NCBI GenBank assembly: GCA_004796375.1
Contig: QZLA01000361.1
Span: 1 to 64,000, forward strand
Reading direction: 5' to 3'
From: Desulfobacteraceae bacterium
GTDB taxonomy: Bacteria > Desulfobacterota > Desulfobacteria > Desulfobacterales > Desulfobacteraceae
Length of the DNA stretch: 64,000 nt
In this document: in pieces, positions 32,933 to 42,924 of the stretch
Position numbering within the stretch: the stretch's first letter is position 1
Layout of the letters: each line of letters begins with the position of its first letter
Made by a program: the position numbers and the translations under genes
Notes under the pieces: generated by a model
Told to the model about the DNA's origin: nothing
Database searches by the model: none
The model's input: only the letters and a program-made list of their open reading frames with translations

Positions 32933-33553
32933 TTGATTATAAAAAGACTTGAAGTCGGGCCCATCATGGCAAACTGCTACATACTCGGGTGCGAAGATAC
33001 TAAAGAAGCGGTGGTGATCGATCCGGGAGAAGATGCGGACCGAATACTGATGACCTTGGCCGAATCCAGTCTTAAGGTAAAATATATCATCAACACCCAT
33101 GGGCATTTTGATCATGTGGGTGCCAATAAGCGGATGAAGGATGCTACCGGTGCCGAACTGGCCATCCATCCGGACGACGCCCCCATGCTCAATGAACTGA
33201 GCCACTCGGCACGGATGTTCGGGCTGACGGCGGAGAATTCTCCGGAGGCGGATATCATGCTTTCGGACGGGCAGAAGCTGACCTTTGGCAACCACACACT
33301 GGAAGTGATTCATACACCGGGGCATTCCCTGGGTGGGATATGCCTGTATACGGATGGAATTCTCATCGTGGGGGATACCCTGTTTGCCGGATCCATCGGC
33401 AGGACCGACCTGCCGGGTGGCGATTATGACACCTTGATTTCGAGCATTAAAACCCGGTTGTTGAACCTTGACGATCAGACCGTTGTTTATCCAGGCCACG
33501 GGCCCCAGACAACCATTGGACGTGAAAAGTCAATGAACCCATTTTTGAGATGA
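32933..33553 (+). CDS. Metallo-beta-lactamase-fold hydrolase (glyoxalase II-like)
   Basis: TTG 32933 is the likely start: AAGGAGG lies five bases upstream and the family N-terminus (LIIKRLEVGPIMANCYIL) begins here; longer upstream frames overlap nusB. The 206-residue product has the HxHxDH metal motif in NTHGHFDHVGANK, later metal ligands in HTPGHSLGG, VGDTLFAGSIGRTD and YPGHGP. It is a short, YcbL-like member of the glyoxalase II superfamily; substrate cannot be told from sequence. The stop overlaps the pabBC start (ATGA). Confidence 0.88.
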   Translation: MIIKRLEVGPIMANCYILGCEDTKEAVVIDPGEDADRILMTLAESSLKVKYIINTHGHFDHVGANKRMKDATGAELAIHPDDAPMLNELSHSARMFGLTAENSPEADIMLSDGQKLTFGNHTLEVIHTPGHSLGGICLYTDGILIVGDTLFAGSIGRTDLPGGDYDTLISSIKTRLLNLDDQTVVYPGHGPQTTIGREKSMNPFLR

Positions 33554-35931
33554 ATGGATTTATAGACGGTTTACCCTGTTTAAATTTTATCCATAAAGAG
33601 GATCTGCCAAAAGGCAGATCCTTTGAAGAGATTGCCCGGCAATTTGCCGCAGATACCGGTACGGTCGTTTTAATGAGCGGCACGGATCTCGACTGTGCCC
33701 GGTACAATATCCTGGCCATTGATCCGTGGCTTGTTGTCCAGGGGCGGAATAACCGGTTTGAGGTCAGCTGTTTCGGTCACACCCATGAGTTCGATACCGA
33801 TCCATTCAGTCTGATTGACCGGATCATCTCCCGTTACGCGCTTGACGCAAAGGTCCAATTGAGCCAATGGGGACCCGTATGTGCCGGCCTGTTCGGTTAT
33901 TTCTCCTATGATCTCAAGGATGACATCGAAGTGCTTCCCCAGACCTGTATGGATTCCGGGTTGCCCGATATCTGCCTGTATGCGCCGTCCATGATCATCA
34001 TTCAGGACAGGCACAGGGATCATCACCCCCTTTCATTGTTCATACCCATTCTGGGCAGACCTGATGAACCCTCACAAGACCGCAACGCTTACATTGAATC
34101 AAAACTGGAATGGCTGAGGCAAAAGCTGTCCGAGCCGGTGCATGGGGATGATGGGATCAATGACCCCGGCACCTATGCCATTGACCGGGAAGGATTCTCG
34201 TCGAGTTTTACCAAACCGCAGTACCTTGAGGCGGTCCGGCGGATCATTGCCTATCTCAAGGCCGGAGATATCTATCAGGCCAACCTGTCCCAGCAGTTCA
34301 GGTCAGGGTTTAAAGGGGATCCGTTTACCTTGTTTGTTAATCTGTTCAAGCAGAATCCGGCCCCATTCTTCGCCTATGTTCATGCCGGCAGCCACACCAT
34401 TGTGTCTACATCCCCGGAAAGATTTATCAAACGGGAGGGGAACTATATCGAAACCCGCCCCATCAAAGGTACCCTGGCCAGGGGAAGGGATGCATCAGAG
34501 GACCAGGAACGGGCAAAGATATTGAGTGCAAGTGTCAAGGATGACGCCGAACTGACCATGATCGTGGACCTGATGCGCAATGACCTGTCCCGGGTGACCC
34601 GCCATGATTCTGTCATTGTCCGGGAGCACAAGCGTCTTGAACCCTACGACAATGTGTTCCACCTGGTGTCTGTGGTCGAGGGTGAACTGCGTTCCGGTAC
34701 CACCCCGATGGATATTATCAAAGCCACCTTTCCAGGGGGATCCATCACCGGCTGCCCCAAGATCAGGTCCATGGAGATCATTGACGAACTTGAACCGGTG
34801 AGGCGTCATGTATACACCGGTTCCATCGGTTATATCAGTTTTCACGATACCCTGGATCTGTCCATTGCCATCCGCACGGCCACGGTGTTTAACCAGAGCA
34901 TCTGTTTTTCCGTAGGCGGGGGCATTGTCTATGATTCCGACCCTGAAAAGGAATATCAGGAAACACTGGATAAGGGAAAAACCATAATGGACACCCTGAC
35001 AGGTGCCCATGAAGCAGTGCACCCCACACCCAGGTCCAAAGTATGGTTGAACGGGAAAATATGCCCGGACCATGACGCACTGATCCCGATAGGGAGCACC
35101 GGATTCCAATACGGGGCCGGGATCTTTGAAACCATTCGCGTGGAAAACGGCCGGCCGGTAAGGCTGGATCATCACATCACCCGGATGACCCGCTCCTGGG
35201 AGACGCTGTTTGACAATATCCTGCCAAAAATGTCCTGGGATACGATTATCGATCAGCTGCTCAGGGAGAATCACCTGGCCTCAAACAGTTGCATGGTCAA
35301 GCTCATGGTGTTTGAAGACAAAGCGCTGAACCCCAGCGGGATATCCATGGCCGCCATGACCCGGCCCTATGTTCACCGCCTCGAGATGCTTGAAAAAGAG
35401 GGGCTGGATCTGTGGTCTTGTCCCAGACAACGAATCTCACACCTGGCGGATCACAAATCTATGAACTATCTGTTCTATTATCTTGCAGGACAATCTGCCC
35501 GGGAAAACGGGCGGGATGAGGCCATTATTTTCAACCCCGACGGGAGTGTGTCTGAAACCAATACCTGTTCGGTGATGGTGGTGAGCGGCAAGCGTGTTCA
35601 GACTCCGGAATCGGAGCATGTGCTGCCCGGGGTGACCCAGTCCGAGACCCTGTCCATACTGGAAACCATGGGGTATGAAATTACCCGAAGCCGTTTGAGC
35701 CTGGAAGACCTGCTGGGTGCTTCCTGCGTGCTGCTCACCAATTCACTCATGGGCGCAGTGCCGGTCCTTTCCATAGATGATTTTGTCTATGGCAGTGATG
35801 CCCTTGATCTGGCAAAGAATATTTGCCATGACCTGAATCATGCATTATTTTCTGGGGATGAACATAACCAAAATATCATGGAGCAAAGCCTTGAATCCGA
35901 TTTTCAGGAGGTGTACAAAAGCGGTAGTTAA
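33550..35931 (+). CDS. pabB-pabC: Aminodeoxychorismate synthase component I fused to aminodeoxychorismate lyase
   Basis: The 793-residue protein joins two steps of p-aminobenzoate (folate) synthesis. The N-terminal PabB part (to about residue 480) has the chorismate-enzyme segments AGDIYQANLSQQF, STSPERFIKREG, ETRPIKGTLARG and FPGGSITGCPKIRSMEI. The C-terminal PLP fold-type IV lyase has GAGIFETIRVENGRPVRLD, the likely PLP Lys in DHKSMNYL and VSETNTCSVMVV. The glutamine amidotransferase PabA is not adjacent. Such fusions are known. Overlaps the hydrolase upstream by four bases. Confidence 0.93.
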   Translation: MNGFIDGLPCLNFIHKEDLPKGRSFEEIARQFAADTGTVVLMSGTDLDCARYNILAIDPWLVVQGRNNRFEVSCFGHTHEFDTDPFSLIDRIISRYALDAKVQLSQWGPVCAGLFGYFSYDLKDDIEVLPQTCMDSGLPDICLYAPSMIIIQDRHRDHHPLSLFIPILGRPDEPSQDRNAYIESKLEWLRQKLSEPVHGDDGINDPGTYAIDREGFSSSFTKPQYLEAVRRIIAYLKAGDIYQANLSQQFRSGFKGDPFTLFVNLFKQNPAPFFAYVHAGSHTIVSTSPERFIKREGNYIETRPIKGTLARGRDASEDQERAKILSASVKDDAELTMIVDLMRNDLSRVTRHDSVIVREHKRLEPYDNVFHLVSVVEGELRSGTTPMDIIKATFPGGSITGCPKIRSMEIIDELEPVRRHVYTGSIGYISFHDTLDLSIAIRTATVFNQSICFSVGGGIVYDSDPEKEYQETLDKGKTIMDTLTGAHEAVHPTPRSKVWLNGKICPDHDALIPIGSTGFQYGAGIFETIRVENGRPVRLDHHITRMTRSWETLFDNILPKMSWDTIIDQLLRENHLASNSCMVKLMVFEDKALNPSGISMAAMTRPYVHRLEMLEKEGLDLWSCPRQRISHLADHKSMNYLFYYLAGQSARENGRDEAIIFNPDGSVSETNTCSVMVVSGKRVQTPESEHVLPGVTQSETLSILETMGYEITRSRLSLEDLLGASCVLLTNSLMGAVPVLSIDDFVYGSDALDLAKNICHDLNHALFSGDEHNQNIMEQSLESDFQEVYKSGS

Positions 35932-35995: not shown

Positions 35996-36706
35996 ATGAA
36001 AAAACTGATCGTCTCCCTGGCTCTATCAGCTGCCATGGTTCTATGGACAATACCGACCCTGGCAGCACCCGTGGCAGAGTTAAAGGACAAATCCTTTGAA
36101 TTTGAAACCGTCCGCGAGGGTGAGTATGTCCTCCATGAATTCCATATCAAAAATACGGGAGACACCGTATTGAATATCAAAAAAGTGGTTCCCGGCTGAG
36201 GCTGCACCGCTGTCGATTACGACAAAGTAATTGCCCCGGGCGGGCAAGGAAAGGTAAAGCTGAAACTGGACACCAACGGCAGGGGCGGCGGTATCCTTAA
36301 AAAACGAATCCAGATCGATACCGATGACCCGGTCAATTCCAAGATGTTTTTTGAAATCAGAGGAATGGTCGAGCAGGTGGCCAAGATCATGCCCAAGAGC
36401 ATCACCTTCAGGGGATCGGTCAAAGAAGAATTTTCACAGGTGGTGTCTATCACACCCTCTAAAAAATATCCTTTCGCCCTCAAAGAGATTTCCATGAACT
36501 CGGATCTGTATGTGGACGCCAAGCTTATTCCACCTGCCGATGGCGAAGATACCTGGAAGATCGAAGTGAAAAACAAGATGAAGGAAGCCGGCCGTTACTT
36601 TGAAATCATACGGGTCTCCACGGACAGCGAGTTTAAACCGGAGATCAAGATCCGGGTCTATGCCATGCTGATCGAGGAGGTTGTTCAGAGTACCACCGGA
36701 TCTTAA
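35996..36706 (+). CDS. DUF1573 exported protein, probable selenoprotein (in-frame TGA at 36197)
   Basis: Reading through a single TGA (36197-36199) gives one continuous frame of 237 codons. It begins with a signal peptide (MKKLIVSLALSAAMVLWTIP, cleavage near TLAA) and a full DUF1573 domain: FEFETVREGEYVLHEFHIKN, then KKVVPG-TGA-GCTAV, then APGGQGKVKLKLDTNGRGGG and IQIDTDDP. DUF1573 proteins normally have CGC at this place, so TGA falls exactly on the first conserved Cys; residue 68 would be selenocysteine. Conservation of frame and domain on both sides argues against decay. A short hairpin 32 bases downstream resembles a bacterial SECIS. DUF1573 function is unknown; the redox-type motif suggests periplasmic thiol/selenol chemistry. 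Alternative: a recent nonsense mutation or sequencing error. Confidence 0.82.
36231..36247 (+). promoter_or_regulatory. Candidate bacterial SECIS hairpin
   Basis: TTGCCC (36231-36236) pairs perfectly with GGGCAA (36242-36247) around the five-base loop CGGGC. The loop begins 38 bases after the TGA, at the upper edge of the distance usual for bacterial SECIS elements, and has G residues near its start as those elements do. It lies inside the coding sequence, as bacterial SECIS elements must. The stem is only six base pairs. Confidence 0.5.
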
Positions 36707-36731: not shown

Positions 36732-37364
36732 ATGATAAACAAACAAAAAATAAAAGCCGTCATCTTTGATTGTGACGGTGTCATGTTTGACACGGCCCAA
36801 GCCAACCGGTCGTATTATAATGAAGTGCTGACCCATTTCAACCAACCCGAGTTGACGGATGAACAGTTTGAAAAGGTACACAAGGCCACAGTCACGGAGG
36901 CCATTGATTACCTGCTTCCAGGGATTGAGGATAAGTCCGTGGTGTTTGACTATCTCAAACAGGCGGGATACCATCGGTTTGTTAAATACATGAAAATGGA
37001 AAGCGGCCTGATCGAGTTATTAATGGCATTGAATGCCCACGGCTATATCCGGGGGATCGGTACCAACCGCACCAATACCATGCCCAAGGTCCTCAAGGAT
37101 TTTGAACTCGAACCCTATTTTGAGATGGTGGTTACGGCAGCGGATGTCGAACACCCCAAACCTCATCCCGAGCAGCTCCATAAAATCATGGAACGGTTCG
37201 ATCTTGAACCGGACGAGGTGATGTTTGTCGGGGACTCGGATTATGATGAACAGGCTGCCAAGGGAGCGGGTACATGGTTTGTCGCCTTTAAAAGTCCGGC
37301 CCTGGATGCCCATCTCCATGTTCAATCCATGGATGAGATTGCACAATTTTTTGGTATAAAATGA
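36732..37364 (+). CDS. HAD-superfamily hydrolase (phosphoglycolate phosphatase-like)
   Basis: From ATG 36732 the 210-residue product shows all four HAD motifs: AVIFDCDGVMFDT (nucleophile Asp13 and Asp15), GTNRT, the Lys in HPKPHPEQL and the acidic VGDSDYDEQAA. The helical cap between motifs I and II puts it in the Gph/beta-phosphoglucomutase-like subgroup. The substrate is not evident. It lies 25 bases after the DUF1573 gene; the frame upstream of ATG overlaps that gene and is not homologous. Confidence 0.88.
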   Translation: MINKQKIKAVIFDCDGVMFDTAQANRSYYNEVLTHFNQPELTDEQFEKVHKATVTEAIDYLLPGIEDKSVVFDYLKQAGYHRFVKYMKMESGLIELLMALNAHGYIRGIGTNRTNTMPKVLKDFELEPYFEMVVTAADVEHPKPHPEQLHKIMERFDLEPDEVMFVGDSDYDEQAAKGAGTWFVAFKSPALDAHLHVQSMDEIAQFFGIK

Positions 37365-37493: not shown

Positions 37494-38771
37494 ATGTCTA
37501 AATTAGTAGCACCTCATGGTGGAAAAGGTCTCGTTTGTGCCAAACTCGACGGCGCAGAACTTGAAGCGGAACTGAAAAAAGCAGAAGGTCTCAAAAAAAT
37601 TGAGATCTCTTCCCAGGTTAAAGGTGACCTGATCATGCTGGGTATCGGTGGGTTCAGCCCGCTGGCCGGTTTCATGACCAAAGCTGACTGGAAAGGCGTT
37701 TGCGAAGACTTCCTGCTGGCAGATGGTACTTTCTGGCCCGTACCGGTAATGCTGGACTGTGCAGCAGCCGATGCCGCAGAGATCAACGTAGGTGATGAAA
37801 TCACCCTGGAAAGAAATGGTGAGATCTACGCCACCATGAAGATTGATGAAAAGTTTGAAATGACCGAAGACGAGAAAAAATGGGAATGTGAAAAAGTCTA
37901 CAAAGGTCATGGTGAAGAATCAGCTGATGACGTATTCTGGAAAGTTGCCATGGAAGATCATCCCGGCGTCCAGATGGTTATGGCCAGAAAAGAGTTCTGC
38001 CTGGCAGGTCCGGTAAAGGTTCTTTCCGAAGGCGAATTCCCCGAAAAATTCAAAGGCGTTTACTTAACTCCTGCAGAAACAAGAGCCATCATGGATGAAA
38101 AAGGCTGGAAAACAGTTGCTGCCATGCAGCTGAGAAACCCGATGCACAGATCCCATGAGCATCTTTGCAAAATTGCTCTGGACGTATGTGACGGCGTTGT
38201 GATTCACTCCCTGATCGGTAACCTCAAACCCGGTGACATCCCTGCAGACGTACGTATTGAATGCATCGAAACCCTGATTCAAGGCTACTTTGTACCCGAG
38301 CACGTTGTCAACGCCGGTTACCCGCTGGACATGAGATATGCCGGCCCGAGAGAAGCGCTTCTCCATGCCACTTTCCGTCAGAACTACGGTGTTAACAGAA
38401 TGATCATCGGTCGTGACCATGCGGGCGTTGGTGACTTCTACACCTTGTTTGAAGCTCAGGAAATTTTTGACCAAATCCCGACTCCGGCAGAAGAAGGTAA
38501 AGCACTGATCACCGAACCTCTGAAAATCGACTGGACTTTCTACTGCCACAAATGTGACGGCATGGCCTCCATGAGAACCTGCCCGCACGGCAAAGATGAC
38601 AGAGTCATCCTGTCCGGTACCAAACTGCGTCACGCCCTGTCCAACAACGAACCTGTTGTTGATCACTTCGGCCGTGAAGAAGTTCTGGTTATACTGAGAA
38701 AATACTATGCATCTCTGACTGAAAAAGTTGAAGTTAAACTCCAGAGCCATGCAGAAGGATCTAAAATGTAA
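37494..38771 (+). CDS. sat: Sulfate adenylyltransferase (ATP sulfurylase)
   Basis: Sat activates sulfate to APS with ATP, the first step of dissimilatory sulfate reduction in the cytoplasm. The 425-residue product is of the homo-oligomeric type: [35 protein letters not shown] (the phosphate-binding RNP/HxxH-type site), [14 protein letters not shown], and a Cys-bearing [18 protein letters not shown] segment near the C-terminus that may bind zinc. Codon use is noticeably more uniform (AAA, GAA, CTG, GGT) than its neighbours, as expected for a highly expressed gene. It stands alone between its own promoter and terminator; aprAB and qmoABC are not adjacent. Confidence 0.97.
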
Positions 38772-38864: not shown

Positions 38865-40658
38865 TCAGATTCCCTCGCACCCGGGTTCGAATGAGCCCGC
38901 TGTCACACTGATTTTCAACCGCTGCGCCAGATTTCTGATCACCTCAAGCCTGACGCTGTGGCCGGGTTTTATGTTGCCCCCACGCGTTCTCACCGGGGCT
39001 ATCAAACGGTCCCAGCAGTCAAGGATCAGGTCTCCGGCTTGGATGCCGGCCTGGGCAGCAGGGCTTTGGGGAAGAACATCCACGACAAAGGAGATGTCAT
39101 GGGAACCGGCTGCCTTACGTTCATAGGGCATGGATCCCGCAAGATACAGACCGAACCACGGATCCTTCTCAGTCCGTGAGTAAAAAAAGGATTTGCCAAA
39201 AGGTATGGGCCTTTCAAGGACAGGTTTGAGCGTTTTTACCCTGTTATCCCGGAACACCCTGACCTTGACCCGGTCCCCTGGTTGATATCGGAACATCAGA
39301 TCATTCCAATCCTGGTAGGCTCGCGTGATGGGTATGCCGTCAATGCTTAAAAGGATGTCCTTTTTCATTTTGTCACCGCCCATGGGATAGGCACCTCCGG
39401 CTTTGTAGAGCGGTCCCTTGAATTCAGGGATGATCTCAAATCCCAGGTGATCAGCATTCCATTTTCCATAGTTGATCCCTAAGAATGCCGTCTGACCTGA
39501 ATAGGGATACATCCGGTTGGTTTTGATGACAAAATTCTGATACGCAAACATGTAGGGGTGGTGGGTACTCATGAAATGCCATCCGCCAGTGGCATTGAAC
39601 ATGATCATGGTGTGGGCCATGGTGCTGATATCGATCTGCCATCCTTTTTCTGCGCGGATGAAAAAATAGGGGTTCTTTTGGATGATTTTTTCCGCATCAT
39701 TGCCATGCCTGACCATGACCACGGCATATTGGCCGTTGATGCGTGAAATCACCGGCAGGCCATCAAAGGATTGGGCTTCCATCCGTTTTTGGGCACTGGT
39801 ACCCCGGTGCCAGTGATGGTAAAAGTCTTTTGTGCTATCGGAGAACAGATCAAACGAGCGATCCCTGATCTGCCGGGCACAATGCTCCATATACCGCTCA
39901 TAGGCCATAAGAGGCGAGGGCTGGGCCGAAAAATATTTTTTGAGGGCATGGCTGGATTCGGGAAGTGTTTTATCCAGGGCTGCAGCAAAGTCAAATGTCG
40001 CTGTTGCACCCCCGCCACCGGAGAAGTGAGGACCGCTTCCGGAAGAGGAAAGCCCGCTGATATCCTCACCCTTTTCGGACCGTGTTTCAACCCGATGGGA
40101 CAGGTTTTCAAGAAAGGAGAGAAACGCTTCGTCCCATACGCCCTGTTCAAAGAACTCCTTGAGCAGTTCTCTCTCTGCCCGGGCAACAAAAAGATCGGTA
40201 AAGATATGCTCCAGATCATATCCGGTTTCGATCCTCAGTGTTTGATCTTCCCGGGCCACCAGGAGCAGTAATCCCTTTTTGCCCCGGATGGATCTGCCGA
40301 TCTGCCAGTCCGAGAAAACTGCAGCAGCTTTTTCATTGATGTCATGATCTCCCAGTGAATGGACAATGATAATGACCGGGTCGATATCAAAATACTTTCT
40401 CAGCAGATGCGCGTAATGGTTGTTGATCCGGGTAATGGTTCCCGGTTCGAGGCTCTGTATGAAATCAAAACAGTAGCCATCCACAGCAGGACGCTGTGCC
40501 GGAATATCCAAAGGGATCTCCTGAAGCGGCCTGTCATTGGAGCAGGAGAGAGGAGTACACAGGAGGAGGGCCAAGATGAGTATCGCCGAGTAAAAACGAA
40601 AAAAACGCCATGGAAGAGGGGTAACGATGAAGGTGTTCAAGCTGTTGCTCCGTGTCAT
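38865..40658 (-). CDS. TPM-domain lipoprotein with two PDZ-like domains
   Basis: The 597-residue product begins with a hydrophobic segment and a lipobox-like LCTPLSC (Cys about residue 39). A TPM domain (TLP18.3/Psb32/MOLO-1 type) spans about 60-190 with DPVIIIVHSLGD, GRSIRGKKGLLLLVAREDQ and RIETGYDLEHIFTD; then a glycine-rich GGGGATATFDFA, a middle domain without clear match, and two PDZ-like regions (KKDILLSIDGIPITRAYQD near 410 and SPAAQAGIQAGDLILDCWD near 540). TPM domains bind or hydrolyse phosphate esters in some proteins and often accompany LemA. ATG 40658 overlaps the stop of the preceding gene. Confidence 0.78.
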   Translation of the reverse strand: MTRSNSLNTFIVTPLPWRFFRFYSAILILALLLCTPLSCSNDRPLQEIPLDIPAQRPAVDGYCFDFIQSLEPGTITRINNHYAHLLRKYFDIDPVIIIVHSLGDHDINEKAAAVFSDWQIGRSIRGKKGLLLLVAREDQTLRIETGYDLEHIFTDLFVARAERELLKEFFEQGVWDEAFLSFLENLSHRVETRSEKGEDISGLSSSGSGPHFSGGGGATATFDFAAALDKTLPESSHALKKYFSAQPSPLMAYERYMEHCARQIRDRSFDLFSDSTKDFYHHWHRGTSAQKRMEAQSFDGLPVISRINGQYAVVMVRHGNDAEKIIQKNPYFFIRAEKGWQIDISTMAHTMIMFNATGGWHFMSTHHPYMFAYQNFVIKTNRMYPYSGQTAFLGINYGKWNADHLGFEIIPEFKGPLYKAGGAYPMGGDKMKKDILLSIDGIPITRAYQDWNDLMFRYQPGDRVKVRVFRDNRVKTLKPVLERPIPFGKSFFYSRTEKDPWFGLYLAGSMPYERKAAGSHDISFVVDVLPQSPAAQAGIQAGDLILDCWDRLIAPVRTRGGNIKPGHSVRLEVIRNLAQRLKISVTAGSFEPGCEGI

Positions 40659-42304
40659 TTCATGTCAAGGGCAATTTTCTGCTTTTTCAGGAACCGGTGC
40701 AGTGCGCTGATACGATGGGGATGAGGGGCGTCACAGGTCTGTGCCAGCTGCACCATGCCCTTAAGTTTCTTCTTGGCGCTGATCCGCCTCGGATCGATAG
40801 GAAGAAATCGGGAATACTTTTGTGCATAGATCCTGGCGAGATAACAATAGGGATAGCTGCGGGAGGGATCCAGAAAGACGGCATGTTTGAGAAGTTTTTC
40901 AGCGGTGGACAGATCATTCAGGCGGTAATAGAGGTATCCCGCAAATGAGGCGCCAAAGGGATCGGTTGGAACCTGTTTTCGATAGTGGTTGATGTATTTG
41001 AGCGCACCTTTTTCCTCAAGGTGTCCGTCGAACAGCACAATGGACAGGTATTTATGGCTTTCCGCATCATTGGGGTTCAGGCGGATCGCGTTCTTCAGCG
41101 TTTTGACGGCTTTTCTGTGCGCGGTCAGCGCATACAGGCGCCCAAGGGTTTTCAACCCCTTTGGGTTTTCAGGTTCTTTTTCCAAAAGATACTGGTAATG
41201 CCGGATCTGCTGTGCAATAAACGGGTCTTTACCGATACGGTAAATATCCTTTTCAGCCAGGGGGATATCCCGGGTATGCTCACCAAATGTGGGGAACCGT
41301 TTCAAAAGGGTCGTATAGATATAGTTGCCGGCCTCAATACCCCATTTGGGGTTCCGGGACATGCGTACATGCTTGAGCTGGTTCACCATATCAAAGCGCC
41401 ATCCCTGGGATGTCCGGGCAAACAGAAACGGGGTATTGTCCCAACCCGTGTTCCGGTTAAAATGGATGACCGCATGGCTTTGATTCCGGATCACCAGGAA
41501 CGCTTTGTCAAAATGTTTTACATTTTCTTCATATGCAGAATCCGGCTGGTGGGTAAAGTTTTCAAACGTGATTTTGGCAACCTCTGTGTAAACACCCAGG
41601 TTCGGGTTTCTGACCTTGTGTTTCCAGGACCGTACCAGGGTGTCGAACGCTTCTTCCGGTGTACTTCCGGCAGGGTAGTCCCCGGCCTGATGTTTGAAAC
41701 TCTCCGTATCCAGTGCTGAAAGGTTTCGGCCGGCCCCGGCCCCGCCTGAGAGGTAGCTGCTGTCCATCTGTTCAATTACCTGGGGGGTATAGCGTCCCTT
41801 CATTTTTACCGCAGCCCGTTTTTCGATCTCCTCCATCACCGCGATGAGTCCGAATTCAATATCATCGGACAGAAAATAGTGACGCAGTTGCCGGTCCTGG
41901 GCATATCCACAGAAAAGATCCGTAAACACATCCTCCAGAGAATAGGAAACCTCGATGCGGGCCAGTTTTTCTTCTTTGGAAAACAAGAGCAGCAGGCCGT
42001 TGCCATTGAAGTCTTTTCCGATGTCATGCTCCAAAAAAAGGTTCAGGGCAGTTTCTTCAATACTCAGGGCCTTGGGAAGTTCGCCCAGAGATATGATGAC
42101 GGCATCAATGCCGTAATTTTCCCTTAAAACATCCAGGTATGTGCTGCATCCATCCTGGATATCGGTAAAGATCCCGGCCTGGTCCATGCAGCCCCTTAAA
42201 GGTCCAGGCGGCGCATTCGTGTAGCCCGAAGCAGCCCAGGAGAAAAGGAGGATTATAAAAATCAGCGTGATCTTCCCCGGTGAGCACCATCTTTTAAAGA
42301 TCAT
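40655..42304 (-). CDS. TPM-domain exported protein with C-terminal TPR repeats
   Basis: From ATG 42304, which overlaps the lemA stop (ATGA), the product is 549 residues. It has a signal peptide, a TPM domain (about 35-180) with DAVIISLGELP, GNGLLLLFSKEEKLARIEV and YSLEDVFTDLF, a middle domain paralogous in layout to that of the next gene (NTGWDNTPFLFARTSQGWRF resembles its KGWQ segment), and TPR repeats from about residue 370 (LKTLGRLYALTAHRKAVKTL, KNAIRLNPNDAESHKYLSI). The two TPM genes probably arose by duplication and then acquired different tails (TPR versus PDZ). Confidence 0.78.
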   Translation of the reverse strand: MIFKRWCSPGKITLIFIILLFSWAASGYTNAPPGPLRGCMDQAGIFTDIQDGCSTYLDVLRENYGIDAVIISLGELPKALSIEETALNLFLEHDIGKDFNGNGLLLLFSKEEKLARIEVSYSLEDVFTDLFCGYAQDRQLRHYFLSDDIEFGLIAVMEEIEKRAAVKMKGRYTPQVIEQMDSSYLSGGAGAGRNLSALDTESFKHQAGDYPAGSTPEEAFDTLVRSWKHKVRNPNLGVYTEVAKITFENFTHQPDSAYEENVKHFDKAFLVIRNQSHAVIHFNRNTGWDNTPFLFARTSQGWRFDMVNQLKHVRMSRNPKWGIEAGNYIYTTLLKRFPTFGEHTRDIPLAEKDIYRIGKDPFIAQQIRHYQYLLEKEPENPKGLKTLGRLYALTAHRKAVKTLKNAIRLNPNDAESHKYLSIVLFDGHLEEKGALKYINHYRKQVPTDPFGASFAGYLYYRLNDLSTAEKLLKHAVFLDPSRSYPYCYLARIYAQKYSRFLPIDPRRISAKKKLKGMVQLAQTCDAPHPHRISALHRFLKKQKIALDMK

Positions 42305-42924
42305 CACGACCCGAAATCCACTTTGGGGACAGTGAACGCATCATCCGAGGCCTTGAAGTAGGCATGCTCATTGAAACCAAACAGGCTTGAAATGACGTTT
42401 CCGGGAAAGGCCTGGATTTTGGCATTGTATATCCTGACCGATTCATTGTAGCGCCCCCTGGCCACAGTGATCCGGTTTTCTGTGCCTTCAAGCTGGTCCT
42501 GAAGCGCCAGGAAGTTGGTGCTGGCCTTTAGATCAGGGTAATTCTCCACAACGGCCAGCAGGCTTTTAAATGAGTTTCTCAGCAGTCCCTGGGCCATGGC
42601 AGCAGAGGTCATGGTCTCCGGATCAGGTCCGGTTTCCTTGATCTTGTCCAGCACGGACTGGGCCTGGGTCCTTGCTTGGGTTACGGCAATGAAAATGTCC
42701 TTTTCATGAGCAGCATATCCTTTGACCGTACTGACCAGGTTGGGGATGAGGTCGATACGTCGCTGAAGGGCGGTCTCGACCTGCGCCCAGGAGCCGTCAA
42801 CCCGGTTGTCCGACTTGACCACCGAATTGTAAGTCACAACGGCAAAAAGGCCTGTCAGTCCGAGGAAAAAGAGCATGACGGCAAACATGCCGGCCACAAT
42901 GATCATCATACTTTTACTGTTCAT
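42304..42924 (-). CDS. lemA: LemA family protein
   Basis: From ATG 42924 (GGAG seven bases upstream) the 206-residue product has one N-terminal membrane helix (about 8-28) and the LemA helical bundle: YNSVVKSDNRVDGSWAQVET, RRIDLIPNLVSTVKGYAAHE, ENYPDLKASTNFLALQDQLE, RYNESVRIYNAKIQAFPG. Function of the family is not settled; it is regularly found with TPM-domain proteins. It overlaps the upstream LemA-like gene by 11 bases and the TPM gene by a few, so the set is tightly coupled. Confidence 0.92.
   Translation of the reverse strand: MNSKSMMIIVAGMFAVMLFFLGLTGLFAVVTYNSVVKSDNRVDGSWAQVETALQRRIDLIPNLVSTVKGYAAHEKDIFIAVTQARTQAQSVLDKIKETGPDPETMTSAAMAQGLLRNSFKSLLAVVENYPDLKASTNFLALQDQLEGTENRITVARGRYNESVRIYNAKIQAFPGNVISSLFGFNEHAYFKASDDAFTVPKVDFGS

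Follow-up and report, generated by a model that had tools for sequence, protein, structure and literature searches.

A gene very likely to encode a selenoprotein of the known OS_HP2/DUF1573 family in a Desulfobacteraceae bacterium

The 64,000-nucleotide stretch of Desulfobacteraceae DNA analyzed here (the window) carries on its forward strand, at 35996–36706, a gene assigned by Pfam DUF1573 and NCBIfam NF041425 to the DUF1573/OS_HP2 (seleno)protein family. Its reading frame (35996–36703, with a TAA stop at 36704–36706) encodes 236 residues when the sole in-frame TGA, at 36197–36199, is read as selenocysteine (Sec68), and the remainder of the frame is open. Translation confirmed the preliminary description of this DNA, in which the frame ran unbroken from a signal peptide to the C-terminus except for this one codon. 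The probable signal peptide (MKKLIVSLALSAAMVLWTIPTLAA, 35996–36067) was recognized by eye from the sequence, and residues 2–16 form a helix in the structural model described below. Cys70, the last residue of the U-G-C motif that begins with Sec68, is encoded at 36203–36205. Three further single-TGA read-through frames occur within the window, and the surroundings of their TGA codons lack a Cys-like context.

The flanking genes on the same strand are a PabB/PabC-type fusion upstream (33550–35931) and, downstream, a HAD-IA family hydrolase (36732–37364; Pfam HAD_2, E = 2.5e-36) followed by sat, encoding sulfate adenylyltransferase (37494–38771; NF003166, 462 bits). The hydrolase is phosphoglycolate phosphatase-like and scores under all equivalog cut-offs. 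Two adjoining minus-strand genes, whose products are probably exported, occupy 38865–42307, and the first of them has a C-terminal PDZ-like region with weak matches to Do/DegQ.

The OS_HP2/DUF1573 selenoprotein is reportedly a discovery of Zhang and Gladyshev in 2007. The read-through protein of the window scored 127.1 bits against NF041425, "OS_HP2 family (seleno)protein" (curated cut-off 100), and 111 bits in the whole-genome search, again above the cut-off. The match to Pfam DUF1573 (PF07610) reached 69.7 bits, compared to a gathering threshold of 26.1, and extends over residues 28–125 (E = 2e-19), so the match spans the TGA and the domain is preserved on both sides of it, as had been described. 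Membership in NF041425 calls for a [UC]GC motif with Sec or Cys in its first position, which is what the window protein has. Two reviews list a DUF1573 domain-containing protein with a UGC motif among the selenoproteins, and credit it to a 2007 study of the deltaproteobacterial symbiont of Olavius algarvensis (PMC9312934, PMC13188914); OS_HP2 also appears, as pfam07610 with a UxC motif, in the 2008 Global Ocean Sampling list (PMC2398784). The window protein shares with OS_HP2 the domain, the U-G-C motif with Sec first and, to the extent that the reviews specify one, the bacterial group, and we find no difference of substance between them. The gene is thus a well-supported yet unremarkable representative of a selenoprotein family catalogued since 2007–2008, and neither the family nor the exact position of Sec is new.

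Homologs are widespread. Of 86 genomes from the window's taxonomic family, 75 encode the protein, nearly always with a single in-frame TGA, and the family model matches 168 of 394 sampled genomes of the phylum, where most of the strongest matches also have one in-frame TGA. Identity between the window protein and its best-matching members within the taxonomic family is about 35–43%. A scan of genome contigs returned no relatives. To the window protein we aligned 59 loci, chosen as the top-scoring hits from both searches (genomes of the taxonomic family and the phylum sample). The preliminary description had placed the TGA at the first Cys of a CGC motif and proposed an alignment of this column; nothing but Sec or Cys codons was found there, with TGA at 54 loci, TGT at three and TGC at two, although the true share of Sec in the family as a whole will be lower since only best matches were aligned. 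The second Cys of the motif is invariant, and the tree requires at least three changes between Sec and Cys. Cys-form DUF1573 proteins (e.g., L050, L059, L062, and L063) have the same domain and a CGC motif but differ from the window protein in that TGT or TGC replaces TGA, and a SECIS element is not expected in their genes. Tandem DUF1573 genes occur at two loci, L108 and L111 (G431:C20 and G118:C37); in the G118 pair, a TGA is present in one copy while the second is free of in-frame stops, and that genome may thus have Sec and non-Sec copies next to each other.

A TGA is in principle only one base change away from TGT or TGC, and the codon could therefore reflect a nonsense mutation or a sequencing error, the DUF1573 gene being in decay. 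The alignment argues strongly against this: TGA recurs at this codon across many of the phylum's families, and the loci without it have Cys codons. In addition, the gene has no second lesion and its synteny is retained. Relative to the window protein, the homologs differ by 0.52, 0.41, and 0.67 at the first, second, and third codon positions before the TGA and by 0.50, 0.39, and 0.68 after it; as the pattern is alike on both sides, the part beyond the TGA evolves as coding sequence. The composition of the TGA/Cys column, together with this persisting constraint, means that decay or base error cannot explain the TGA, and we regard such an origin as extremely improbable.

The genome to which the window belongs (5.6 Mb in 410 contigs, 93.5% complete) contains the selenocysteine machinery for which the preliminary description suggested a search, with selA, selB, selC, and selD all present. 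The tRNA-Sec scored 76.5 bits and has the anticodon TCA, while SelA (613 bits, cut-off 268), SelB (369 bits, cut-off 242), and SelD (374 bits, cut-off 125) all scored well above their cut-offs; one in-frame TGA occurs within the SelD match as well. The tRNA-Sec and sel genes are located on contigs other than that of the window because the assembly is fragmented. An altered genetic code, in which the organism reads every TGA as an amino acid, has the in-frame TGA of the DUF1573 gene in its favor and nothing further. TGA serves as the ordinary stop of 13 of the 37 long genes within the window, which excludes such a code, and the presence of both tRNA-Sec and SelB also speaks against it; of all the explanations considered here, we give this one the least credence. 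Taken together, the Sec machinery, the TGA column, and the coding constraint past the TGA strongly support the proposed Cys/Sec exchange at the CGC motif's first residue, and the gene very probably encodes a selenoprotein of the OS_HP2/DUF1573 family, as judged by comparative evidence.

Bacterial SECIS hairpins sit directly after the UGA, and their loops carry a G close to the 5' end. The preliminary description named a six-pair hairpin, and such a hairpin does exist at 36231–36247, but it makes a poor SECIS candidate: it begins 32 bases past the TGA, its apical loop lies at +38 to +42, its z-score is −0.94, and 41 of 200 shuffled sequences fold as well. The same bases code for a conserved I-(A/P)-P-G-G stretch, and this hairpin is probably incidental to that coding role rather than a SECIS element. 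The search for a SECIS element downstream of the TGA, also proposed there, yielded a better fit at 36214–36233 (+15 to +34 after the TGA), where a candidate hairpin of seven pairs (CGAUUAC-GACAAA-GUAAUUG) has a loop, GACAAA, that begins with G. We compared the best hairpin in the post-TGA zone of each gene to those of protein-preserving synonymous-codon shuffles, and the result for the window gene was borderline (p = 0.06). Across the 54 TGA loci, the mean hairpin energy was −4.3 kcal/mol, compared to −0.9 kcal/mol in the shuffles, and p fell below 0.05 at 24 of these loci, where about three would be expected by chance if one sets aside that related loci are not independent. The corresponding count was none of five for the Cys loci, a set too small to serve as a strong control. 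About eight TGA loci have no hairpin under the rule used, and hairpin registers vary between clades. An Rfam scan of the whole window returned no family at threshold, which is uninformative for or against a SECIS element. Thus, a structure downstream of the TGA is supported for the family taken as a whole, but only suggested for the window gene itself.

To describe the protein's architecture, we used an AlphaFold2 model built with 52 aligned members (mean pLDDT of 94.3), which consists of a signal helix followed by two Ig-like domains. The first is the DUF1573 domain (36077–36370), for which Pfam, the model, and fold comparison indicate an Ig fold of the HYDIN/ASH type; the second (36380–36673) is formed by strands within residues 129–226, modeled with pLDDT above 90. 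The U-G-C pair is located in the first domain, at the start of a strand. This domain superimposes on 2e6j with a Z-score of 10.7 and an rmsd of 2.0 over 99 residues, and it also resembles PapD-like domains and the P. gingivalis protein 2qsv. It shares the fold of HYDIN/ASH (PapD-like) Ig domains such as PDB entries 2e6j, 6fvi, and 2qsv, although the likeness to these three is one of fold only, at 10–17% identity. Matches over both domains give a large rmsd because only single domains superpose. A phmmer search against solved structures produced no match, and a profile search of solved structures produced weak matches only, 2qsv among them. The Ig fold by itself does not reveal function.

The neighborhood of the gene was compared across loci. 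Within the window's family, the conserved order is ribH, nusB, a gene with a metallo-beta-lactamase fold, the pabB/pabC-type fusion, the DUF1573 gene, the HAD-IA gene, and sat; the conserved position of sat may reflect no more than the ordering of housekeeping genes. By ORF clustering, a HAD gene adjoins or lies near the DUF1573 gene at 21 of 60 loci, and eight of these belong to taxonomic families other than that of the window. Genes for a rhodanese and a MauE/DoxX-like membrane protein lie beside the DUF1573 gene at four loci, which represent three families; their identities were checked by Pfam at L092 (8342–9300) and assigned by similarity clustering at L102, L114, and L127. No report of DoxX, rhodanese, and MauE together was found in the literature searched. 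At seven further loci of another lineage (L094, L115, L118, L119, L120, L125, and L130), the DUF1573 gene follows a gene that groups by clustering with a divergent polysaccharide deacetylase, and one more conserved gene; the deacetylase assignment was checked by Pfam at L094 and made by clustering at the others.

Based on these observations, we propose the following model. SelB and the Sec-tRNA(UCA) would decode the UGA at 36197–36199 as Sec68, aided by a hairpin directly downstream of the UGA, most likely that at 36214–36233. The signal peptide would take the protein across the inner membrane, and the protein is predicted to fold as two Ig-like (HYDIN/ASH-type) domains, the first of which would carry Sec68-Gly-Cys70 where a strand begins. 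Sec68 and Cys70 may then alternate between the reduced selenol/thiol and the selenenylsulfide. A periplasmic role in thiol or sulfur redox chemistry appears somewhat probable: it is favored by a Sec column that tolerates only Sec or Cys and by the MauE/DoxX-like and rhodanese neighbors found in a few lineages, and disfavored by the common Ig-type fold, for which binding is the more frequent role.

Metal binding is the main rival to a redox pair. The protein could be a selenoprotein as proposed, with the U-G-C pair on its Ig scaffold serving as a ligand site for a metal or metalloid (e.g., Cu or Hg) instead of as the equivalent of a redox dithiol. CXC-type spacing in an exported Ig domain would suit such a site, and several of the other selenoproteins that a review lists from the same 2007 study have links to mercury or metals. 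However, the alignment consensus has no conserved His or Met beside the motif, and no metal transport genes are among the neighbors that were identified, a minority of all neighbors, the rest having been grouped by clustering only. We consider a metal site unlikely.

The redox role that we favor can be extended to its neighbors, in that the Sec DUF1573 protein would be a periplasmic partner of MauE/DoxX-like proteins and rhodaneses in redox chemistry or persulfide handling, coupled functionally to the HAD hydrolase; this more specific proposal is speculative and, in our estimation, quite doubtful. The gene is a clean case of a known selenoprotein in a large conserved family, to which the present analysis adds a high-confidence model of two Ig domains, a SECIS candidate that fits better, and conserved neighbors that hint at tests. 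Should the partnership prove true, it would be the first role for this Ig-fold selenoprotein family.
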